IMG/VR virus record: IMGVR_UViG_3300030085_002620
Span: 1 to 39,157 of that record
Reading direction: 5' to 3' (one strand)
From: a virus
Length of the DNA: 39,157 nucleotides
Shown: one piece after another, positions 19,847-32,701 of the stretch
Numbering within the stretch: the first letter of the stretch is position 1
How the letters are laid out: every line of letters starts with the position of its first letter
The notes under the pieces: generated by a model
What the model was told of the DNA's origin: nothing
Database searches by the model: none
What the model saw: only the letters and a program-made list of their open reading frames with translations
Program-made: the position numbers and the translations under genes

Positions 19847-21652
19847 ATGGCACAGTGGATTGCAGCAATTGCTAGGGGACATAACTCTGGCATTTGCTTA
19901 CTAAAAGATGGTGAGATGGTTATGTCTCTTGAAGAGGAGAGACTGTCTCGTCACAAATACGATGGAGGTCCACTTGCCTCCATGGTAAAAATCCTTGAGT
20001 ATACTAATAGACTTGATTATCTTGTCATTGCACATACTCAACCCTTGGATGATACATCTAGGATTGATTTTACTGGTGACAATATGTACACTGGTTTAGC
20101 AAGGAAACTTGGTTTGATTGATCGTAAAGCAGATCTGTATAACCATCCTCAAGTAATTGATCTTAGTAGAACTCACCATAAACTTCATGCTGCTTGTGCT
20201 TTTTATCGCTCTGGTTTTGAGTCTGCAGTATCTCTAGTGGTTGATGGTGCAGGAACTTTTATTCCCATGACTCTCGGTAGAGAAACTGAGATGACCTGGG
20301 AGTTGGAATCTGCATTTACCTGTGAGTATCCTGCAAACTTTAAAACTATCTATAAGCACCAAGCAGGAAGAGGTCCTTGGGGATCTGCAAAGATTGATGA
20401 TTTTGATAGTGAGGGTGAAAAAGAAGAGGGAACTCATGAGTTCATCCTTGATGAGAGTGCTGGTATTACAAAGGCATATGAGGCAGTAACTCAGTATTGT
20501 GGTTGGGCACCAATCGAAGCAGGTAAAACTATGGGATTATTCCCATATGGCAAACCAAATGATTTGATTCCATCCATTTATACTGATCATGGTGGAACTG
20601 CTGAGTGGAAGACTGCCGATAGAGATGTTATCGTTCCTACCTATCCCAATGGTGCAGTAGTTAATGAGGGAAGATATCCATTCCTTAGAACTCCTAAAGG
20701 TGAATCTGATCTTACTACACTAGAGAATCGTAGGGATATGGCGTATGCCATCCAGGTCGAGTCTCAGCAAATGGTTCTTGATCTTATCCGAAAGGTTGTC
20801 AAGATGTCTGGCAATAAGAACGTTGTTCTTTCTGGTGGATATGGTTTGAACTGTGTTGCAAACTATTGGTATCTTGATCAACTTAAAGATGAGGGTATTA
20901 ATCTTTTTGTTGAACCTGTGAGTAATGATGCTGGCACAGCAATCGGTGCAGCATATTTTGTGTATCATCAAGTGAGTGAATCTATGACTGTTCGGGAAAG
21001 AATTAAGGATCTTTATTATGGTCCAGAGTATACATACGAACCAGAATTCATTGAACAAATAGCAACTAATTGGGGTGCTACTGCTATCAGAGGAGGAGTA
21101 ACTTATTCTGATGTGGTTAGTTTGATTACTGATAAAAACATTGTTGCAATGTATCAAGGAAGGTCCGAGGCAGGACCTCGTGCTCTTGGTAATCGATCTA
21201 TTCTTTATGATCCTCGTGATCCTAATGGTAAAGATCATGTAAATGAGATTAAACATAGGGAATACTTCCGCCCCTTTGCTGGATCTATTCTTAAAGAACA
21301 TGTTCATGATTGGTTTGATCTTCGTGGAATGGAAGATACTCCATTTATGATGTATGCTGTTAAGTGTCAGGAGGGGATTGAAGAAAAAATTCCTGCAATC
21401 ATTCACGTTGATGGTACATGTAGAATTCAAACAGTGACGGAGGATGTTAATCCTCATTATTACGGTTTGATTAATGAGTTCTATGAACAGACTGGTTGCC
21501 CAATCATCTTTAATACTTCATTCAATCTTGGTGGAGAACCTTTGGTTGAGACTTTAGATGATGCTCTTCGTACACTTCACAACTCTCGTATTGAATACCT
21601 TTATCTCCCAGAGTATGGGTTGCTTGTAGAAGTTAAGAATGGAGATGACTGA
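19847..21652 (+). CDS. Carbamoyltransferase of the NodU/CmcH/TobZ family, full length, 601 aa
   Basis: Two-domain enzymes of this family make carbamoyl-AMP from carbamoyl phosphate and ATP in the YrdC-like C-terminal domain and pass the carbamoyl group to a hydroxyl in the Kae1-like N-terminal domain. Here the Kae1-like part has EERLSRHK (30-37), His110 and His114 of HHKLH, VVDGAG with Asp133, SGGYGLNC (329-336) and SNDAGTAIG (359-367), the metal and nucleotide motifs. The C-terminal domain has GPRALGNRS (443-451), HVDGTCRIQ and NTSFNLGGEPLV. All key features are intact. GAGG sits before the ATG. Acceptors in the family include sugars and antibiotics; here it is unknown, though the GT9-like neighbour suggests a glycan. 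Confidence 0.9.
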   Translation: MAQWIAAIARGHNSGICLLKDGEMVMSLEEERLSRHKYDGGPLASMVKILEYTNRLDYLVIAHTQPLDDTSRIDFTGDNMYTGLARKLGLIDRKADLYNHPQVIDLSRTHHKLHAACAFYRSGFESAVSLVVDGAGTFIPMTLGRETEMTWELESAFTCEYPANFKTIYKHQAGRGPWGSAKIDDFDSEGEKEEGTHEFILDESAGITKAYEAVTQYCGWAPIEAGKTMGLFPYGKPNDLIPSIYTDHGGTAEWKTADRDVIVPTYPNGAVVNEGRYPFLRTPKGESDLTTLENRRDMAYAIQVESQQMVLDLIRKVVKMSGNKNVVLSGGYGLNCVANYWYLDQLKDEGINLFVEPVSNDAGTAIGAAYFVYHQVSESMTVRERIKDLYYGPEYTYEPEFIEQIATNWGATAIRGGVTYSDVVSLITDKNIVAMYQGRSEAGPRALGNRSILYDPRDPNGKDHVNEIKHREYFRPFAGSILKEHVHDWFDLRGMEDTPFMMYAVKCQEGIEEKIPAIIHVDGTCRIQTVTEDVNPHYYGLINEFYEQTGCPIIFNTSFNLGGEPLVETLDDALRTLHNSRIEYLYLPEYGLLVEVKNGDD

Positions 21653-22826: not shown

Positions 22827-24302
22827 ATGATTAAGACTGTTGTAATTGTTGGTGGAGGAACCTCTGGATGGTTAACTGCGTTAGCAGTTACCCATAGAAT
22901 TCCTAATGTTGGAGTTATTCTGATAGACAAAGAAGAATCGACAGCAGTGGGTGTTGGTGAAGCTACATTGCTGGGGTTTGATAAATTTCTTAATGAATAT
23001 TGTGGTCTCAATCCACAAGAATGGATGCCTGCTGTAGATGCGATTCCTAAAGCTGGTATTTTATTTCCAGATTGGGTTGAGGAAGGTAATTCTATATGGC
23101 ATCCATTTTACTTTCCAATGGCAGATGATAAGGTTCCTTTGTGGGATGCCATATCTCATACTGATGAGGATATTAAAGGACTATTGCCCTTGTACGATCT
23201 TAGCTTGGACAATAAGGTTGATGTTGCTGACATGAAATCCTATGCTTGGCACATTGATTGTTCTAAATTAGTTCAGTATATTCAAGATCACTTAAAAAAT
23301 ACTTCTATTTTGAAGCACGTTCAATCTAGTGTTGTTGGAAAGAGGGTTGATGCTTTTAATAATATTCAATCTCTAGTCCTTGCTGATGGATCTGTAGTCA
23401 ACGGAGATATCTTCTTTGACTGTACTGGGTTTAAAAGTATTCTTAAAGAAGAGAGAGACAGAGTAGATCTTCAAGGAAGATTGTTTGTAAATACTGCTGT
23501 TGCTGGACATGTACCATACTTAGAAGAGGGTGATTGTAAGTGTAAGGGTGGAACTAATTCTGAGAAGCATCCTTATGTTGAGTGTCCTGCTGTTTCTGAT
23601 GGATGGATTTGGAAGATCCCTCTTCAGACTAGAATTGGTAGTGGTATGCTTTTTAATAGGGACATCACTGATGTTGAGGATGCTAAAGATGCTTTTGTTG
23701 CGTACTGGGATGGTAGAGTAGATAGAGATAGTTTGAAGATTATTGATTGGACTCCATATTATGATAGAGATATTTGGCAGAACAATGTAATCTCTATTGG
23801 ATTAAGTGCTGGATTTATTGAACCACTTGAGAGCACTGGAGTGGCGTTAATCACAGAGGGGATTTCTAAAGCAGTAGAAATTATAAAGGGTAGGTCATTT
23901 GATTCATTTGATCAAGACTTGTATAATTCTTACATGATTAGTTTGTTTGAGACCTGTGCTGACTTTGTGTCCTCTCATTATGCCATCAGCAAAAAAGAGT
24001 CTGATTTTTGGGACTACGTTCGGAAAAACTATGCCCCATCTAAGTATGAATCTGTTATACTTAGTAACATCAATAGCGTAGAACCATCAATCACAGATGG
24101 AAAACCCTCTATATTTGGTGGATCAAACTGGTTGTACTGGCTTCTCCAAATGGGATATCCAACACAGAGAAAAACTTACCTGGCGGAAAGTGCTGCTGAT
24201 TACTTTGTCCAGAGATACAAATCATACAAACAAAGCCTTGAGTCTGGTAGAAGTGCAATTTCATTATCCGAGTTTGAGGAGATGATGAATGGCACAAACT
24301 AA
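22827..24302 (+). CDS. Flavin-dependent tryptophan halogenase family protein, 491 aa
   Basis: These enzymes use FADH2, oxygen and chloride or bromide to halogenate tryptophan or related rings; hypohalous acid travels through a tunnel to a catalytic Lys. Visible features are the Rossmann GGGTSGW (9-15), VGEAT (43-47), a Lys in the expected place (IPKAGILFPDW, Lys75), WIWKIP (260-265, the WxWxIP block that excludes monooxygenase activity), and EPLESTG (332-338) with the Glu-Ser pair. Length is close to the usual 500-540. All known catalytic positions look intact. Substrate is unknown; free Trp, a peptide Trp on the virion, or another aromatic are all possible. A flavin reductase partner is not seen in this window. 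Confidence 0.9.
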   Translation: MIKTVVIVGGGTSGWLTALAVTHRIPNVGVILIDKEESTAVGVGEATLLGFDKFLNEYCGLNPQEWMPAVDAIPKAGILFPDWVEEGNSIWHPFYFPMADDKVPLWDAISHTDEDIKGLLPLYDLSLDNKVDVADMKSYAWHIDCSKLVQYIQDHLKNTSILKHVQSSVVGKRVDAFNNIQSLVLADGSVVNGDIFFDCTGFKSILKEERDRVDLQGRLFVNTAVAGHVPYLEEGDCKCKGGTNSEKHPYVECPAVSDGWIWKIPLQTRIGSGMLFNRDITDVEDAKDAFVAYWDGRVDRDSLKIIDWTPYYDRDIWQNNVISIGLSAGFIEPLESTGVALITEGISKAVEIIKGRSFDSFDQDLYNSYMISLFETCADFVSSHYAISKKESDFWDYVRKNYAPSKYESVILSNINSVEPSITDGKPSIFGGSNWLYWLLQMGYPTQRKTYLAESAADYFVQRYKSYKQSLESGRSAISLSEFEEMMNGTN

Positions 24303-24702: not shown

Positions 24703-25420
24703 TGATGAGTATGTCTACGGAGACGTAGAGCGTATTAGTCCAGAAGCTCCTGTACCTGTTCTTAAATATGATAGAACTGAGACTCATAAGGGTATGTCTG
24801 CTAATGTTAAGGCAAACCTAGAGTCTTTTGGTGTATTTGTAAATCATATTACAAATAAGAAATCAATTGTAAAGCGTAGGATAGTTGATCGTGGTAGTAA
24901 TCAACAACTAATTCGTATTGATGAAGAGAATGAGATAGATTCTCTCAAACCATCAGAAGTAAAGTCTGCATTCATTCACATGCAGTATGATGCTGTGGTT
25001 ATATCTGATTATGATAAAGGATATCTAACTAAAAATGATCTAGAAGTATTCTGTCAGAACTTTCCAGGACCAGTTTTTATTGATACTAAGAAGACTGAAC
25101 TGTTTAGTTATCCAAATGTATTCTTTAAAATCAATCAAAGAGAATTTGATAACTTAGTGGTAAAACCAAACACTGAGAACTTGATTGTTACTGTTGGTGG
25201 TAATGGTACGGTATATCAGGGTAATATATATCCTGCCGAGAAGGTGAATGTATTCGATGTTGTGGGTGCAGGAGATACCTTTTTAGCAGCATTGACTTAT
25301 GCGTATTTAATGCATAATGATATTGCAGCAGCAATAACGATGGCAAATAAAGCATCTGCTATTGCAGTTCAACATTATGGTTGTTATGTTCTCAGTAATG
25401 AAGAGGCACATGGTTTATGA
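24653..25420 (+). CDS. PfkB-family heptose-7-phosphate kinase-like protein (HldE N-domain type), 255 aa
   Basis: Phosphorylates heptose 7-phosphate at C1 in ADP-heptose synthesis. The signature YGDVERISPEAPVPVL (23-38) is specific to RfaE/HldE kinases, NQQLIRIDEE (83-92) follows, and DVVGAGDTFLAA (near 205) supplies the catalytic Asp. Normal HldE kinase domains are about 320 residues. This one lacks roughly 50-60 residues between the ANVKANLESFG helix and KRRIVDR, and the GGAANVA motif reads KGMSANVK. The ATG at 24653 was chosen over GTG 24647; no Shine-Dalgarno is obvious, so translation probably couples to the upstream gene. Function likely, activity not certain. Confidence 0.75.
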   Translation: MQPQKQFNVLLIGETCDDEYVYGDVERISPEAPVPVLKYDRTETHKGMSANVKANLESFGVFVNHITNKKSIVKRRIVDRGSNQQLIRIDEENEIDSLKPSEVKSAFIHMQYDAVVISDYDKGYLTKNDLEVFCQNFPGPVFIDTKKTELFSYPNVFFKINQREFDNLVVKPNTENLIVTVGGNGTVYQGNIYPAEKVNVFDVVGAGDTFLAALTYAYLMHNDIAAAITMANKASAIAVQHYGCYVLSNEEAHGL

Positions 25421-26427
25421 ATAAGACTATAGCATTTAATATTACTCATGATGCTTCTGCGTGTAAATGTTCGGGTGGCGATATTGAAGTATTTTTAGAA
25501 GAGGAACGATTAAGTAGAATAAAAAATGATGAGTATCCTGTAAAGACTTTTTTAAAACTAATTGAACCTGGGTGTTCCTTGGGTTTTACTGGTCTGGATT
25601 ACAATGATGAGATTAATGTTAGTAAAAAAGTAAATGAACTAACACCAATCATCTCAAAGAAATTTGGCGTTCATCCTGATGAAATAGTAACTGTCACACA
25701 ACATCATGCTTTACACGCTTTATGTGGTTTTTATAATTCTGGGTTTGAAGATGCATGTGTTGTTGTAGTTGATGGAATGGGTAATCATATTGATTATGAT
25801 TATCATGAAGCAGAGAGTATATTTAATGTGAAGTATCCAAGTGATGCTACTTTGTTAGCAAGAAATGTTTGTGCTAGGAGTGACTCTAATAATATTCAAC
25901 TTAGAGACATACATGGAGAGTGGCCAATAGGTATTGGCATGGTCTACGCTTCAATATCTTCTTATCTTGGGTTTGGATCTTTGGGGTGTGGTAAAGTTAT
26001 GGGACTTGCTCCATATGGAAGAGATGATGATAACATCAAACCCTTCGTTCTTAAGGATGGATCAATTAATTCTAGATTGTTCTACAGAACTTTTGGTGGA
26101 GCAAACTTTATTCCATATGATTATCTTCCAACTCATTGGAAATTTACAGAATGGGATGAGAAGATGCAAAGGATTGCAAACTTAGCGTATAGGTTGCAAA
26201 AAGATTTTGAATCATATATGATTAATCTGTTACAGCAAGCAGTAAGGATGTCTGGGTCAAAGAATCTTATTTTAACTGGTGGTTGTGCTTTGAACTGTGT
26301 TGCTAATTATGAATATTTAAATCATTTATCAAAGGATATAAATTTTTATGTAGAACCAGTAAGTAATGATGCTGGTACTGCTATTGGATTGGCAAAACTG
26401 ATGTATTATAAGGAGAATAACTCATGA
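25417..26427 (+). CDS. Carbamoyltransferase Kae1-like domain only, 336 aa
   Basis: Clear match to the N-terminal half of the 601-aa enzyme: THDASA, EEERLSR (28-34), HHALH with His96 and His100, VVVVDGMG with Asp119, GKVMGLAPYG, TGGCALNC and SNDAGTAIG (316-324). The YrdC-like C-terminal domain, which would make carbamoyl-AMP, is missing. The gene ends naturally with a GGAG before the next ATG and an ATGA overlap, with no domain remnant downstream, so this is not an obvious frameshift. Metal and transfer motifs are intact. It may work with one of the full-length carbamoyltransferases, use a different acyl-adenylate donor, or act on a sugar partner. Function unproven. Confidence 0.85.
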   Translation: MNKTIAFNITHDASACKCSGGDIEVFLEEERLSRIKNDEYPVKTFLKLIEPGCSLGFTGLDYNDEINVSKKVNELTPIISKKFGVHPDEIVTVTQHHALHALCGFYNSGFEDACVVVVDGMGNHIDYDYHEAESIFNVKYPSDATLLARNVCARSDSNNIQLRDIHGEWPIGIGMVYASISSYLGFGSLGCGKVMGLAPYGRDDDNIKPFVLKDGSINSRLFYRTFGGANFIPYDYLPTHWKFTEWDEKMQRIANLAYRLQKDFESYMINLLQQAVRMSGSKNLILTGGCALNCVANYEYLNHLSKDINFYVEPVSNDAGTAIGLAKLMYYKENNS

Positions 26428-27114: not shown

Positions 27115-27694
27115 ACGTATTGATGAATTGGTTATTGAGTTTCCTAATCTGATACCAGATGAATGGTGTGAAGTAATGATTGAGTGGTTTGATAAGAATC
27201 CTCAACTTCAATCTGGTGGAGGGGTGGTCAATAATAAAAACGAGCAAAGAGTTATAGAAGACTTTAAAGTAGCAACTCAATCTGTTGTTCCGTTCGGAAC
27301 ACCTATGTTTGAACTTATGTCAAAGGTATGGCATAAATCATATGATAGTTACTTAGATTTGGTTGAACGTGCTCCCATTGAAGATATTTACTTTAGAGAT
27401 TATTCTATAAGAGTTTATGATAAGGGTGTTGGTTTTTTTAAACCACATGTAGATCAACAAGCTGGAGGAACTGTTACCAGATTATTTGCAATTATTTTAT
27501 ATCTCAACAACGTAAAAGAGGGTGGAGAAACTGAATTTGCCACCCTCAATAAAAAAGTAAAACCAGAGAAGGGAAAGGTGTTAATGTTTCCATGTAATTT
27601 TTTGTACCCACACCATGCGAATGTGCCCGTCTCAGATTCAAAATATATTGCTACTGCATTTGTAAACTTCAAAGCATCAGATAATCTTCAATAG
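27107..27694 (+). CDS. 2OG-Fe(II) oxygenase, prolyl-4-hydroxylase alpha-like, 195 aa
   Basis: A clean member of the P4H-like family. FKPHVDQQAGG has the HxD (near residue 107), followed by FAIILYLNNVKEGGETEF, then PEKGKVLMFPCNFLYPHHANVP with the distal His, then a final strand. A GTG at 27107 is the best start, since no ATG fits before DEWCEVM and the upstream gene ends within 8 bases. It ends 26 bases inside the opposing epimerase gene. Cyanophages often carry such oxygenases near fibre genes; targets have not been settled. Confidence 0.8.
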   Translation: MIERIDELVIEFPNLIPDEWCEVMIEWFDKNPQLQSGGGVVNNKNEQRVIEDFKVATQSVVPFGTPMFELMSKVWHKSYDSYLDLVERAPIEDIYFRDYSIRVYDKGVGFFKPHVDQQAGGTVTRLFAIILYLNNVKEGGETEFATLNKKVKPEKGKVLMFPCNFLYPHHANVPVSDSKYIATAFVNFKASDNLQ

Positions 27695-28469
27695 TTTTAA
27701 ATTTAAAATTACCAACCCACTTCATGTCAGCACAGGTGTAGGTTTGGTATTTACCTTTTAAGTGATCTGGGAAGGGGATGGTATTGATTTTACCACCCTC
27801 TTTTTTTGCAACCAATTCGGCAACATGCTGGAATGATACTGGAGAACCAGTACCAATATCATAGATACCACTACCTGCAGTGTTGTTCATGACAATACTC
27901 ACGACATCATCAACACATACAAAATCTCTGAGGAACTTATTGGATCCCTTAAACAGATTGAGTTCACCAGTCTCTCTAATCTCTTTTGTAAATTTACTCA
28001 CAGGACTTGCCTGATTACCTTTATGGTCTTCTCCATCTCCATAGACGTTGAAGTATCTAAACCCCTGAACAAGAGAGAACTTATCAATATTATCTAAGAC
28101 AGTGTAATCTACCTGCAACTTTGAGATTGCATATTGGTTCAGTGGATTATATGTTTTTGCTTTTTGATGAATGCTTTGATTACCATATACAGATGCGGAC
28201 GATGCATACTTAATTGGAATCTGATATTCTATTGCTTTATTAAGTAGGGCACATGAGAATGCCACGTTATAGTGCCACAACTTCTGCAGATCCTTCTCTG
28301 TTGTAGAAGAGATGGCACCTTGATGTAGGATTAGATTGACTCTATCCCACCCATCAAAGTCGGTAAAAAGTCTCCAAGCATCTTCTTGGTCCACAAGAAT
28401 TACTTCATCGTCAAGTCTCTCTGCAAAGCACTTGCCAATGAATCCTTTGGCACCAGTTAGAATTATCAT
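27669..28469 (-). CDS. hldD: ADP-L-glycero-D-manno-heptose-6-epimerase-like SDR, 266 aa
   Basis: Inverts C6 of ADP-D-glycero-D-manno-heptose to the L-glycero form. The NADP-binding GAKGFIGK (6-13) is N-terminal. YASSASVYG (88-96) and Tyr113-x3-Lys117 of YAISK form the SDR catalytic site, FRYFNVYG follows, then the HldD-specific EDHKGNQASPVSKF, FLRDFVCVDDV, and IPFPDHLKGKYQTYTCADM. E. coli HldD is about 310 residues; this is shorter by some 40, mostly in loops. It is one of only two minus-strand genes, with a sigma70-like promoter at 28485-28513 on its own strand. A plus-strand terminator lies inside its 3' part. Confidence 0.9.
   Translation of the reverse strand: MIILTGAKGFIGKCFAERLDDEVILVDQEDAWRLFTDFDGWDRVNLILHQGAISSTTEKDLQKLWHYNVAFSCALLNKAIEYQIPIKYASSASVYGNQSIHQKAKTYNPLNQYAISKLQVDYTVLDNIDKFSLVQGFRYFNVYGDGEDHKGNQASPVSKFTKEIRETGELNLFKGSNKFLRDFVCVDDVVSIVMNNTAGSGIYDIGTGSPVSFQHVAELVAKKEGGKINTIPFPDHLKGKYQTYTCADMKWVGNFKFKTIEDYLML
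27774..27807 (+). terminator. Plus-strand intrinsic terminator inside the opposing epimerase gene
   Basis: Left arm GGGG, a bulged A, and TGGTA pair with TACCA and CCC(T) (27774-27783 with 27791-27799), followed by C and seven T at 27801-27807. It lies 80 bases past the stop of the plus-strand oxygenase and is read as KKEGGK codons by the minus-strand gene. Confidence 0.6.
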
Positions 28470-28484
28470 ATCTTTTTGTCCAAT

Positions 28485-28513
28485 ATTATATCAAATAAAT
28501 AATATTACTGCAA
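28485..28513 (-). promoter_or_regulatory. Sigma70-like promoter for the minus-strand epimerase
   Basis: On the minus strand, TTGCAG and TATAAT are 17 bases apart; the -10 lies about 15 bases before the start codon of the epimerase. The predicted leader is only about 9 bases with no clear ribosome site, so either the start or the promoter may need adjusting. Confidence 0.45.
28494..28501 (+). promoter_or_regulatory. Late promoter motif AATAAATA
   Basis: NATAAATA match 32 bases before the ATG at 28534. It sits in the 17-base spacer of the minus-strand sigma70-like promoter, so the two are physically overlapping. Confidence 0.55.
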
Positions 28514-28533
28514 CAATTTTCAGGATATATCCG

Positions 28534-30120
28534 ATGGCTTTTGGATCTCTAGCAACTATCAAGCCAACTGCACTGAATACGAACGAGGTTCTTTATACCG
28601 CACCCGCTGGTCAGTTGGTAGAAGGAAAGGTATATATCACTAATCGTAGTGCATCCGAAATTAAAATTCGGGTTGGTCTCTCTACAGGAACTGCGTCAGA
28701 TTTTGACACTTCAAAAGGTTACCTAGTATTTAATAGAGTAATTCCAAGAGGAGAATACTACGAGACTGATAGTATTTACTTTGGTGATGGTGAGAGTGTT
28801 GTTGTACGTGCTAATCATACTGATGTAACATTCACACTGCTTGCAGCAGAGACTGAGAATAGAGAAGAAGGTGGATTCCTTGCTCAGGGTGTGTCAGAAT
28901 CTGACAAGAGCAGCACCTTACTCTTCACGATTCCTACAAATTATAAACAGCTCAGAGGTAATCTGTTTGTTTGTAATAGAGGATCCTTTGATACTAAAGT
29001 AAGAGTTGGTCTTGGGTCAACAGCAACAGATTATCTTGAGTACAATTATACTGTTCCTAGAGATACAACTCACGTTAGAACAGACATTAGAGCTGCTGGC
29101 GGGGACGTTCTTTACATTAGAAGTGATAGTTCCGATCAGAATCTTGTTAACTTTGTTCTCTCTGGATATTATGAGAACTTTACTACATTCTCTGGAGATA
29201 TCGGTGTTGCAGGCACGATGCAATCTCAGAATGCTTATGTAAAATCTGCAGTATCTATTGGTATTACTGACGCTGCAGGTAAAGCACTGAAGGTAATTGG
29301 TGATACTGAATTAACTCATGTTAGTGTCACAGATGACCTTGTAGTTCAGGGTAATACTAACGTTGCTGGTGTTTCTACCTTTGTTGGTACAGTAACCTTC
29401 CAAGGCGGTACAGTTAACACTGGCGTTGGTACTGAGAACGCAGTTGTTCTTGATGCTAATGTTAACTCTAACGTTACCCCTGGTACAACTAATACATTTG
29501 ACTTAGGTCAAGATTCTAAGAAGTGGAGATATGTTTATTGCGCGGATACGATTATTGCTAATAACATTGATACCAGTAATGGTACTAGTGGTATTGCAAC
29601 TCTTGGTCGTGTGGGCGCTGGAGCCACTCAAACTCAGGTTGTAATTGGTGCTGCAACTACCGCACTCCTGGCGGGTGGTAACGTTGCGGCAAATGGAGAT
29701 CTGATTGTCAAGGGTCAGATCGGTGTTGGTACAGTTACAACTCCCCAACTTAGAGGTAATACCAGTACAGGTAACCTTGAAGTATGGAACGCTTCACTCA
29801 CTAGATGGATTCCTATTCAAGGTGTAGATACTACATATAGAAGTCTAACTAATAACACCACAATTGATGCTTGGACAACTGTTTGGGCAGATACTTCTGG
29901 TGGTACATGGACTCTTACCTTACCAGCGTCTCCACAACAGGGAGATAAAGTTAGAATTATTGATGTCAGAAAGACTTTTGATACCAATAACTTGACAATC
30001 GGAAGAAATAATAGTAATATTATGGGCGATGCTGCAGACATGACTGTTAATACAGAGGGAGCATCTTTTGAATTAATATATTCTGACTCAACTCAAGGTT
30101 GGGTAATCTTCACCGTTTAA
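28534..30120 (+). CDS. Fibre-like virion protein with two Ig-like repeats and shared C-terminal module, 528 aa
   Basis: ATG 28534 follows a late motif; the longer in-frame extension upstream runs through the opposing epimerase. Two similar N-terminal beta repeats are visible: LYTAPAGQLVEGKVYITNR with KIRVGL, then LFTIPTNYKQLRGNLFVCNR with KVRVGL. The middle has GVSTFVGTVTFQGG and a TFDLGQDSKKWRYVY motif of phage fibre proteins. The last 105 residues (VRIIDVRKTFDTNNLTIGRN and NIMGDAADMTVNTEG) match the end of the 1279-aa fibre. It lies 11 kb away from that block, with the cassette between. Likely a second host-contact protein. Confidence 0.7.
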   Translation: MAFGSLATIKPTALNTNEVLYTAPAGQLVEGKVYITNRSASEIKIRVGLSTGTASDFDTSKGYLVFNRVIPRGEYYETDSIYFGDGESVVVRANHTDVTFTLLAAETENREEGGFLAQGVSESDKSSTLLFTIPTNYKQLRGNLFVCNRGSFDTKVRVGLGSTATDYLEYNYTVPRDTTHVRTDIRAAGGDVLYIRSDSSDQNLVNFVLSGYYENFTTFSGDIGVAGTMQSQNAYVKSAVSIGITDAAGKALKVIGDTELTHVSVTDDLVVQGNTNVAGVSTFVGTVTFQGGTVNTGVGTENAVVLDANVNSNVTPGTTNTFDLGQDSKKWRYVYCADTIIANNIDTSNGTSGIATLGRVGAGATQTQVVIGAATTALLAGGNVAANGDLIVKGQIGVGTVTTPQLRGNTSTGNLEVWNASLTRWIPIQGVDTTYRSLTNNTTIDAWTTVWADTSGGTWTLTLPASPQQGDKVRIIDVRKTFDTNNLTIGRNNSNIMGDAADMTVNTEGASFELIYSDSTQGWVIFTV

Positions 30121-30132
30121 TTTTTTACTGAT

Positions 30133-30396
30133 ATGGCTAGGTCACCTGAAAAATTTACTGTTTGGTCTAAGGATGATTGTCCTTATTGCCAGAAAATTGA
30201 ATATGTTATGGATGCTTTAAAGTGTAATTGGGAACTTAAAAAACTTGGAACCAATTTTACTCGCGAAGAGTTTACTGAAAAGTTTGGTAATGATGCAACA
30301 TTCCCTCGTGTCTACATCGGAGAAGAACTACTTGGAGGATGTGGTGATGCAATCTGGTGGATGAAGGAGCGAGACGGTTACTTCCCCGCTAGATAA
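30133..30396 (+). CDS. Glutaredoxin, 87 aa
   Basis: A dithiol redox protein. CPYC active site at residues 16-19, TFPRVYI with the cis-proline, and GGCGDAIWWM closing the glutathione-binding side. The length is normal. T4-like phages use glutaredoxin or thioredoxin to reduce ribonucleotide reductase. Here its neighbours are a fibre gene 12 bases upstream and a bilin reductase on the other strand whose stop codon directly abuts its own. A role in handling cysteine-rich particle proteins is conceivable but unsupported. Confidence 0.9.
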   Translation: MARSPEKFTVWSKDDCPYCQKIEYVMDALKCNWELKKLGTNFTREEFTEKFGNDATFPRVYIGEELLGGCGDAIWWMKERDGYFPAR

Positions 30397-31044
30397 TCAT
30401 TGAGCGAGATCGAATAAAAAACCATCAATATATTCTCTAGCAAACTGCTTTGTATAGTATGATTTTATGATTCCATATGCGGGATCTGTATATGAGAGAT
30501 GATGGTCATAACCTTTTTGAAAGATGTGAGCGGGAGACCGCTCACATTTTTTTGTGCATTCTTGATATCTTCTAAGATACAGATCTAACTTATTAATGTA
30601 CTCGTCATAAAAATCTTGACGATCAGTTTTGATCCAGAGTTTTTTGGAGAAGTATGTATCTAGATCATAGATCTTTGACTTATCTTTTACTCTATCCTCT
30701 TGATCTCCAAGATACTTTTGAATATATTTGTCTGAATATTCTTTGCTTCCTTCTAGTGGATGGAAGTCTATGGTCCCAAAATATTTTACGTTACCACATT
30801 TTACATACTCTGTTCCAAAGACAGGAGCGTCGTATTGGAAGTCTGGATATATAACAAGAGATTCTGCAACGAACTTACCACGAATATGAAGTTCGCAAAG
30901 TCTTATTCTGCGTAGAGTCTCCGTCCTCCAGACATAAGATTTTATACAGGAGTTCTTGTCTTCTATAACAGGACTCAACCATTTAGGGAGAGCAACTGGA
31001 GTTAGGTTCTGATATAATTCAAATAACTTATTCCTAACTTCCAT
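30397..31044 (-). CDS. Ferredoxin-dependent bilin reductase (PebS/PebA/PcyX-like), 215 aa
   Basis: Reduces biliverdin or dihydrobiliverdin with electrons from ferredoxin toward phycobilin pigments. The family landmarks are YPDFQYDAPVFGTEYV (66-81), a TIDFHPL strand, and the C-terminal DPAYGIIKSYYTKQFAREYIDGFLF (from Asp187). The Asp187 position corresponds to Asp206 of phage PebS. The other catalytic Asp (Asp105 in PebS, in FGMD) is replaced by Glu79 (FGTE), if my alignment is right. A late-type octamer on the minus strand lies 21 bases before the start. Phage pebS and pcyA genes are known in cyanophages; which product this copy makes cannot be read here. Confidence 0.8.
   Translation of the reverse strand: MEVRNKLFELYQNLTPVALPKWLSPVIEDKNSCIKSYVWRTETLRRIRLCELHIRGKFVAESLVIYPDFQYDAPVFGTEYVKCGNVKYFGTIDFHPLEGSKEYSDKYIQKYLGDQEDRVKDKSKIYDLDTYFSKKLWIKTDRQDFYDEYINKLDLYLRRYQECTKKCERSPAHIFQKGYDHHLSYTDPAYGIIKSYYTKQFAREYIDGFLFDLAQ
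30525..30553 (+). terminator. Plus-strand intrinsic terminator inside the opposing bilin reductase gene
   Basis: Perfect 9-bp stem TGTGAGCGG/CCGCTCACA (30525-30533 with 30538-30546), GAGA tetraloop, then seven T (30547-30553). It lies 129 bases past the glutaredoxin stop and is read as CERSPAHIF by the minus-strand gene. It should stop plus-strand transcription from the fibre/glutaredoxin unit. Confidence 0.9.
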
Positions 31045-31064
31045 TACAAAGATTCAATAATAGA

Positions 31065-31072
31065 TATTTATT
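31065..31072 (-). promoter_or_regulatory. Minus-strand late promoter motif AATAAATA
   Basis: The plus strand reads TATTTATT at 31065-31072, giving AATAAATA on the minus strand, 21 bases upstream of the bilin reductase start at 31044. This matches the spacing of plus-strand late motifs. It is an AT-rich gap, so chance cannot be excluded. Confidence 0.45.
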
Positions 31073-32701
31073 ATGCGAGTTCTAAGCATATTTGGTGGTG
31101 GTCATGATTCTTCTGCAACCTTTGTTGTTGATGGGAAGGTTGAGAGGTATCTAAAAGAAGAGAGATATACTGGAGTAAAGCATGACACAAATCACAATGC
31201 AATAATTAGGACAATCATTGATGAGGATCTTCTTAAAGATGTTGATTATATTTTAAATGTTAATCAATTAGAAGACAAAAAAGCAAAGCAATTAAATAAT
31301 ATTCTCAAATCATTTGCACCTCAAGCACATTTTTTGGATCCACCTTGGGAGCATCATTTATTCCATGCGTCAAATGCATTTTATAATAGTGGTTTTAATG
31401 AATCTTTAGTTGTTGTTATTGATGCTGCAGGAACTCGTTTGAGTTCTAAGTATGAGCAAACTGTAGAGTGTGAATCTGTTTATCATGTAAGTTATCCAAA
31501 TGTTTTTAAGAAATTATATAAAGGATACTGGTCTGCTGGTGAATTTAAAGATAGAGATATAAAAAAGACTTCTGGTAAATGTGTATATCAAATTAGGGAT
31601 ATTAATTCTGGATATGCAAACATTGGCAACCTATACAATTCAGCTGCTTTAGCAATGGGACAAACCATTCAAGATTGTGGCAAGGCAATGGGACTATCTT
31701 CATACGGAAAACCTATTCCTTGGATGAGTTTGACTGGTTTTAATGCAAGGTCACATATAGAAAATTATTTTGAAGATAATTTACAATTCTTATCTGTTTT
31801 GAACGGAGAGATGGATGAATACTCTCTAGATATTACGCAAGATAATTATCAAAAGTATGCTGATTATTGCTACGAAGTTCAAAAGCAGTGTATGGAGATG
31901 ACCATTGACATTATTAGGACGCATGTAGAAGCAACAGGAATAAAAAGAGTTTGCTTAAGTGGTGGATATGCCATGAACATAGTTACTAACTATCAGTTGA
32001 TGCAAGAATTTCCAGATGTTGAATTCTTTTTTGAACCTCTTTGTAATGATGGAGGTATCTCAATTGGTGCTGCCATGTATATGTACAGAACACTAACAAA
32101 AGATTTTACAATACATCCGATGGAGACTACTTCTTATCATGGAGTTGCTCAGGATGTGTCCACATATAAGGGTGTTACTGCAGATACTAAACATGTGGTG
32201 GATCTACTATGCCAAAACAAGTCTGTAGCGGTCTTCTACGGGCAGGCAGAGGCGGGTGAGAGGGCATTAGGTAATCGATCCATACTGTTCAATGCATTGA
32301 ATCCAGATGCCAGAGAGATTGTGAATACAATAAAGAAGAGAGAATGGTATAGACCATTTGCTGCTATGGTTTTGGAAGAGGATGCTCACATATACTTTGA
32401 GAATGCATGTCCCAGCAGATTCATGACGGTTTCGTTCCCTGTGAAGTCTGATATAATTCCTGGTGTAACTCATGTGGATGGAACATGTAGAGTTCAGACA
32501 GTTGCATCTGGTCACATGTATGATATCCTTAAGGAGTATAAAAAGGTGACAGGTCATGGTATTCTATTGAACACCAGTTTTAATCTTGCTGGTCAACCTC
32601 TGGTTGATACGGCAGATGAAGCACTCAAAACTTTGAACGAGTCCACTTTAGATTATCTTTGGTTTTACGAGACCAAACAGTTGTTTAAATCCACTTTTTG
32701 A
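31073..32701 (+). CDS. Carbamoyltransferase of the NodU/CmcH/TobZ family, full length, 542 aa
   Basis: A second complete two-domain carbamoyltransferase. Kae1-like part: HDSSA (11-15), KEERY (28-32), His94 and His98 of HHLFH, VVIDAAG with Asp117, LSGGYAMN and CNDGGISIG (324-332). YrdC-like part: GERALGNRS (395-403, Glu in place of the Pro of GPRALG), HVDGTCRVQ and NTSFNLAGQPLV. It is clearly diverged from the 601-aa copy (shorter linkers, about 60 residues less) and closer in its N-terminal style to the partial copy at the window end. It starts divergently from the bilin reductase with only 28 bases between. Acceptor unknown. Confidence 0.88.
   Translation: MRVLSIFGGGHDSSATFVVDGKVERYLKEERYTGVKHDTNHNAIIRTIIDEDLLKDVDYILNVNQLEDKKAKQLNNILKSFAPQAHFLDPPWEHHLFHASNAFYNSGFNESLVVVIDAAGTRLSSKYEQTVECESVYHVSYPNVFKKLYKGYWSAGEFKDRDIKKTSGKCVYQIRDINSGYANIGNLYNSAALAMGQTIQDCGKAMGLSSYGKPIPWMSLTGFNARSHIENYFEDNLQFLSVLNGEMDEYSLDITQDNYQKYADYCYEVQKQCMEMTIDIIRTHVEATGIKRVCLSGGYAMNIVTNYQLMQEFPDVEFFFEPLCNDGGISIGAAMYMYRTLTKDFTIHPMETTSYHGVAQDVSTYKGVTADTKHVVDLLCQNKSVAVFYGQAEAGERALGNRSILFNALNPDAREIVNTIKKREWYRPFAAMVLEEDAHIYFENACPSRFMTVSFPVKSDIIPGVTHVDGTCRVQTVASGHMYDILKEYKKVTGHGILLNTSFNLAGQPLVDTADEALKTLNESTLDYLWFYETKQLFKSTF

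Follow-up and report, generated by a model that had tools for sequence, protein, structure and literature searches.

Results

A bilin reductase gene with opposite orientation in a conserved block

Within the 39,157-nt stretch of viral DNA analysed here (IMG/VR record IMGVR_UViG_3300030085_002620; hereafter the window), positions 30397-31072 comprise a gene for a ferredoxin-dependent bilin reductase (FDBR) and a motif upstream of it (Table 1). Fe_bilin_red (PF05996) was the sole Pfam family matched by the encoded protein (score 96.3 bits, cut-off 31), and the same family was matched by 17/17 members of the clade of relatives described below. The AlphaFold2 model (pTM 0.92, with a 54-row alignment as input) has the alpha/beta/alpha fold of FDBRs, reaching VIA-align Z scores of 22-27 to the structures of PebA, PebB, HY2, PebS and PcyA. 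PebA ranked first, followed by GtPEBB (25.4), HY2 (24.3), PebS (24.2) and PcyA (23.4), and lower scores were obtained for RCCR (19.1), PcyX (18.6) and coproporphyrinogen oxidase (15.2). PebA 2x9o was likewise the top sequence match in the PDB (2e-15 for the single protein in phmmer, 1.5e-23 for the clade profile), ahead of GtPEBB and PebS, and a BFVD search returned distant phage FDBRs only. By family and fold, the window protein is an FDBR.

The gene runs against the direction of the conserved block that surrounds it, with the carbamoyltransferase gene upstream and the glutaredoxin gene downstream (L005 and L017 are left out of the neighbour counts in Table 1). The block's other conserved opposite-strand gene, encoding a nucleotide-sugar epimerase (27669-28469, minus strand), lies beside the tail-fibre-like gene. 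Besides, the window holds three NolO-like carbamoyltransferase ORFs (19847-21652, 25417-26427 and 31073-32701), the middle one matching N-terminal-type Pfam domains only, as well as a tryptophan-halogenase-like gene (PF04820, 1.2e-84) at 22827-24302 in the cyanophage structural region.

Fifteen of the 44 clade records were searched whole. Exactly one FDBR was present in each (15/15), and psbA/psbD-type genes were present in eight. Together with the nearest isolate DNA, which belongs to Synechococcus phages, the latter genes make cyanobacteria the likely hosts of the clade phages. The usual partner of phage bilin reductase genes is ho1; neither a heme oxygenase nor CpeT was found in these 15 records (0/15 each), all of which may be fragments.

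Table 1. Positions of the bilin reductase gene, its neighbours, the upstream motif and the active-site codons in the window.
Feature	Position	Strand	Basis or remark
FDBR gene, 215 aa, ATG start	30397..31044	-	PF05996 match 2.9e-27; AlphaFold2 pLDDT 94.1; VIA-align Z 27.3 to PebA 2x9o
Candidate late promoter element (T4 type) before the FDBR gene, AATAAATA	31065..31072	-	28 nt before ATG; consensus NATAAATA
NolO-like carbamoyltransferase, divergent neighbour	31073..32701	+	Pfam and neighbour count; syntenic in 36/42 related loci
Glutaredoxin, convergent neighbour	30133..30396	+	Pfam and neighbour count; syntenic in 34/42 related loci
Tail-fibre-like gene, same conserved block (an ATG inside the ORF may be the real start)	28336..30120	+	
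Ser62 codon, at Asn88 (PebS) / His88 (PcyA) position	30859..30861	-	S 41, T 2 of 43 clade rows
Glu79 codon (FGTE), at central beta-sheet Asp position (PebS Asp105)	30808..30810	-	Profile alignment to PDB sequences
His95 codon; Gln in PebA/PebB/PebS, Ser in PcyA	30760..30762	-	43/43 clade rows
His182 codon; Tyr in PebA/PebB/PebS	30499..30501	-	41/43 clade rows
Asp187 codon (TDP), at helix Asp position (PebS Asp206)	30484..30486	-	Profile alignment to PDB sequences

A phage lineage inside the PebA/PebS branch

Three scans of IMG/VR yielded 44 related loci, down to about 41% identity. In a 76-row maximum-likelihood tree (comprising 21 clade, 16 PebA, 14 PebB, 14 PebS and 11 PcyA, with PUBS, HY2 and PcyX left out), all 21 clade rows fell together (100/100), and only the clade, PebA and PebS shared a 100/98 branch, with PebB and PcyA outside. 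The clade was still single when eight trait columns were removed from the alignment. For the branching order of clade, PebA and PebS, the alternatives were not rejected (p-AU 0.42 and 0.49); PebS formed a separate clade, again at 100/100, and its sister relation to the present one is among the arrangements not rejected (p-AU 0.42). The PebA equivalog model of NCBIfam (NF009720) gave 97.3 bits against a cut-off of 263, with 407 for a true PebA control. PcyA was the outgroup of the tree, and the corresponding score was 45.5 bits against a PcyA cut-off of 206. Clade placement and score cut-offs rule out a plain PebS or PebA. Judged by this tree, the clade is a lineage of its own inside the PebA/PebS branch, and a scan with the clade alignment of genome contigs from 84,980 bacterial and archaeal species (109 pattern matches) found no cellular relatives. 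Between the window gene and seven relatives, dN/dS was 0.05-0.12, which rules out a pseudogene and, as far as substitution patterns tell, means that the clade encodes a maintained enzyme.

Glutamate at the position of the central aspartate

The sequence-only reading of this locus had claimed that, of the two catalytic aspartates of phage PebS, the second is kept as Asp187 and the first reads Glu79, and both assignments hold. In the alignments, FGTE lies on FGMD of PebS and TDP on LDP, and 2x9i (titled D105N) and 2x9j (titled D206N) have FGMN and LNP, respectively, at these same places. That reading would have lost its point if the Asp lay elsewhere or if Glu were usual in a known subfamily. 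The stretch from the conserved Pro to Glu79 is free of gaps in the PDB alignments, which rules out a displaced Asp, and none of the FDBR subfamilies sampled usually has Glu there. Counting the window and the related loci, Glu occupies position 79 in 43 of 44 sequences that reach it, and one has a stop. The residue table, which sets 43 clade rows (the window and 42 loci, without the partial L016 and L017) beside 315 comparison rows, contains Glu in 42/43 of the former, plus one in-frame stop, and Asp in 314/315 of the latter, plus one gap; L016 also has Glu, and L017 stops short of the position. Asp was found in 43/44 PebA (one gap), 50/50 PebB and 6/6 cyanobacterial PcyA, no Asp-containing search pattern having been used for the cyanobacterial FDBR sets. 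Viral rows read Asp in 13/13 phage isolates, 122/122 PebS and 80/80 PcyA, where the PebS and PcyA sets, with the best 80 loci kept from each search, lean towards Asp because one of the two search patterns for each contains it. Across 194 cyanobacterial genomes, a family search detected FDBRs in 90, at 149 places, of which 89 were read: 85 have Asp, one has Asn in a gene with a stop, two do not cover the position and one was not recovered.

The central beta-sheet aspartate of FDBRs is thus replaced such that the acid is kept and the side-chain length is not. Retention of Glu across the clade rules out a sequencing error or private mutation, and on these alignments Glu is a trait of the lineage, not a private quirk of the window gene. 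Since close relatives use both Glu codons for residue 79 while dN/dS stays at the low values given above, Glu itself is under selection. Asp187 is kept in 43/43 clade rows. Literature searches retrieved no Asp-to-Glu FDBR variant, and no description of a Glu-type FDBR was found in the open-access literature, subscription papers lying mostly outside the search.

Two loci stood out at this position. One clade gene (L037:3342-3989, on a 148.8 kb contig) has its in-frame stop exactly at the Glu79 codon and is otherwise open, and sibling contigs have intact copies; the stop may reflect an error or a recent loss. Separately, a distant FDBR-like protein from a cyanobacterial genome (L344, genome G037; 63.9 bits to PF05996) keeps the central Asp and is far from the known cyanobacterial FDBR groups; the row in which Thr takes the place of His88 and Lys that of the helix Asp is probably this protein.

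Further residues private to the clade

Around Glu79, several other active-site positions depart from the characterised enzymes. The column of Ser62 holds Asn in PebA, PebB and PebS and His in PcyA, so that Asn88/Asp105/Asp206 of PebS here reads Ser62/Glu79/Asp187, and Ser62 stands where PcyA and PcyX have His88 beside the central Asp. Glu61 is present in 43/43 clade rows, in a column that is mostly hydrophobic or aromatic in other groups. Position 183, four residues before the helix Asp, is Leu in 39 and Met in four of the 43 rows, compared with Arg in 50/50 PebB rows (the Arg that marks PebB and HY2), Ser or Asn in PebA and Met in PebS. None of the comparison rows carried the five-letter signature S/T-E-H-L/M-D.

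A late-type motif before the gene

On the minus strand of the window, the late-promoter consensus NATAAATA, as given in an excerpt of PMC2984593, occurs only before the bilin reductase gene and there at promoter distance, as in T4-like late promoters; the plus strand has 13 copies. The window-wide count of 14, set against 8.9 +/- 3.2 in shuffles, is within chance (7/100 shuffles reach 14). Across the relatives, an exact NATAAATA lies within 100 nt upstream in 31/42 clade loci and [AC]TAAATA lies 27-38 nt upstream in 38/42, many of these loci being near-copies that are not independent (L005 and L038, whose starts are not covered, were left out), against a background of ATAAATA in 1.5% of 20,550 100-nt windows. 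Because it is conserved in this way, the motif is more than chance. In the control sets, it precedes 0/122 viral pebS and 11/78 viral pcyA genes, eight of these 11 at 100 nt. Scans found no sigma-70-type site near the gene start and no terminator. The motif is absent from the four most divergent members (L105-L108; 41-46% identity); these also lack the clade's usual neighbours and may belong to other phage lineages with other timing.

The sequence-only reading had noted a minus-strand motif at late-promoter distance, which it held would be unusual for a pigment gene. The first point is confirmed by position and conservation, and the second is supported by the comparison between clade and viral pebS loci (38/42 against 0/122), a comparison that also makes late expression of the gene plausible. 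Instead of a promoter, AATAAATA might belong to an A/T-rich leader sequence ahead of the divergent carbamoyltransferase gene, whose start codon it abuts in the window. The shuffle result would fit such a leader, and with no sigma-70-type site near the start, the scan gives no positive control. We nevertheless doubt this, as L030 and L104, which have no carbamoyltransferase neighbour, retain CATAAATA and AATAAATA at 33 and 27 nt, the position is held within a narrow range in most loci, and viral pebS genes are without the motif.

Discussion

In the present study, we describe a conserved clade of Glu-type FDBRs in phages of photosynthetic bacteria; the clade has yet to be named, while the FDBR family and fold are known. 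PebA is its nearest characterised relative by sequence, NCBIfam score and fold, with the acids at the same two positions. However, PebA shares only about 25% identity with the window protein and differs in having Asp84 in place of Glu, a neighbouring Asn in place of Ser, Gln in place of His95 and Tyr in place of His182; moreover, it is encoded in a cellular operon with pebB, whereas the clade gene is a lone phage gene with a late-type motif. PebS (2vck, from P-SSM2) resembles the clade enzymes in being cyanophage-encoded, in being the only FDBR of each genome among the records searched, in the kept helix Asp and in the hydrophobic Met/Leu at the position of the PebB Arg, but differs at Asp105 and Asn88, in its separate clade and in the missing late motif. 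The comparison with PebS made by the sequence-only reading was therefore correct in its residues and too narrow in its scope, with PebA being the nearest characterised enzyme, the clade a lineage of its own and Glu also present in RCCR.

Indeed, Arabidopsis RCCR (3agb/2zxk) has the same fold and carries Glu in the beta sheet and Asp in the helix at the corresponding places, residues which we take to be Glu154 and Asp291 in the chain numbering of the structural alignment. However, identity over that alignment is about 11%, and RCCR is a plant enzyme with another substrate. Membership of the clade in the RCCR family (PF06405) was considered and rejected, with one of 17 members matching at E 0.009 and, for what a single sequence can tell, no profile match to the cyanobacterial RCCR-like protein. 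This protein (L345, a 669 bp stretch in genome G194) itself matches Arabidopsis RCCR at 6.7e-12, and its Glu aligns to the RCCR Glu and to GtPEBB Asp99, its second acid to GtPEBB Asp219. As aligned here, the Glu/Asp pair is thus already known in the wider fold, from RCCR, but not in the FDBRs sampled. PcyX (5owg) is another phage FDBR and an example of phages reinventing bilin reductases on the basis of different residues, yet it belongs to the PcyA branch and is a much more distant fold match. PcyX reportedly keeps the Asp-His pair.

Which chemistry might such an enzyme perform? According to passages of PMC6755814, neither PebA nor PebB can do without the central Asp, whereas the helix Asp is essential in PebB and GtPEBB but not in PebA; in GtPEBB, some biliverdin was converted to DHBV after the PebS-like exchange R215M, while PEB was no longer formed with R215L. 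With Leu or Met at this Arg215 position and both acids kept, PebA/PebS-like rather than PebB-like function is likely for the clade, as its sequences suggest. The PebA/PebS/PUBS lineage starts by reducing biliverdin at C15=C16, according to part of PMC13193486, which also cautions that neither phylogeny nor active-site residues reliably predict the product of an FDBR. For PcyA, a section of PMC9800206 describes proton exchange between the central Asp and biliverdin, as well as a hydrogen bond from His88 to the A-ring lactam.

Taken as a whole, the explanation that we favour, and hold to be probable if well short of certain, is an active FDBR that belongs to a distinct phage lineage within the PebA/PebS branch, reduces C15=C16 first and acts late in cyanobacterial infection. 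The enzyme would bind biliverdin IXalpha in the usual pocket, where Glu79, one methylene longer than Asp, would take over the central proton-donor role, with Asp187 kept as the second acid. Read from the gap-free alignment register, as are all statements on pocket geometry and side-chain contacts here, Ser62 beside Glu79, shortened from Asn or His, would compensate in size and make room for the longer acid, and His95 and His182 would probably complete the proton-relay network; that a longer acid, a shorter Ser and two new histidines amount to a rebuilt relay is plausible. The first reaction would most likely lead from biliverdin to 15,16-dihydrobiliverdin, an onward step to phycoerythrobilin being about evenly balanced. 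A late-type promoter of its own would drive the gene, opposite in direction to the surrounding structural genes, and the cyanobacterium would supply biliverdin and reduced ferredoxin late in infection.

The most serious competitor, although we think it unlikely, is that the enzyme works exactly as PebS or PebA and that Glu is a neutral historical replacement without consequence. Asp and Glu are both carboxylic acids, and the fold and second acid are unchanged; yet the sampled rows contain no reversal to Asp, not even where relatives share only about 40% identity, and Ser62, His95 and His182 accompany Glu; both points argue for a coupled change.

Next in standing, and improbable in our judgement, is a shift in regiospecificity or substrate caused by the Glu, Ser and His changes, towards a bilin other than DHBV/PEB or, as in RCCR, another open-chain tetrapyrrole. 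A handful of residues can switch an FDBR product, as stated in a portion of PMC13193486, and here five active-site changes are coordinated and clade-specific. Arabidopsis RCCR, with its similar fold (Z about 19) and the same pair of acids, would fit such a shift, as would the weak RCC_reductase match of one member, whereas the clade as a whole is not RCCR-like in sequence: PF05996 is found throughout, the PebA profile matches at 8e-28 with none to the cyanobacterial RCCR-like protein, and PebA/PebS branch members start at C15=C16. Cyanobacteria are also not known to contain an RCC-type substrate, which we count against this possibility. A bolder proposal, and a rather doubtful one, is a further cyanophage-private FDBR family with a Glu/Ser centre, two histidines and an RCCR-like acid pair, acting late on a bilin or tetrapyrrole that no known FDBR handles. 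Finally, a catalytically dead protein that sequesters biliverdin or delivers bilins and is kept for binding only seems very improbable, for even though PebA, PebB and PcyA require the central acid that is changed here, and it has a part in PebS catalysis (excerpts of PMC6755814 and PMC9800206), its replacement is again an acid, kept almost throughout the clade together with the helix Asp, whereas a mere binder would be expected to lose one acid in some members.

Unassigned FDBR sequences have been noted before. Parts of Baeuerle 2026 (PMC13198022) mention three from the ocean, nearest to PebA, and parts of a 2026 Galdieria paper (PMC13193486) mention two uncharacterised FDBR clades; from these excerpts, the Glu clade may be one of the unassigned groups, to which it would then supply DNA context and a testable signature. 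From one substrate, FDBRs make different pigments by proton-coupled reduction, and they are the model for how the protein surroundings steer this; a natural lineage without the central Asp offers a ready-made test of that residue's role. Besides, as the upstream motif suggests, the clade gene seems to be switched on late, unlike other viral pigment genes; should expression indeed prove late, the gene would not fit the common view that phage pigment genes aid photosynthesis of the host while the phage replicates.
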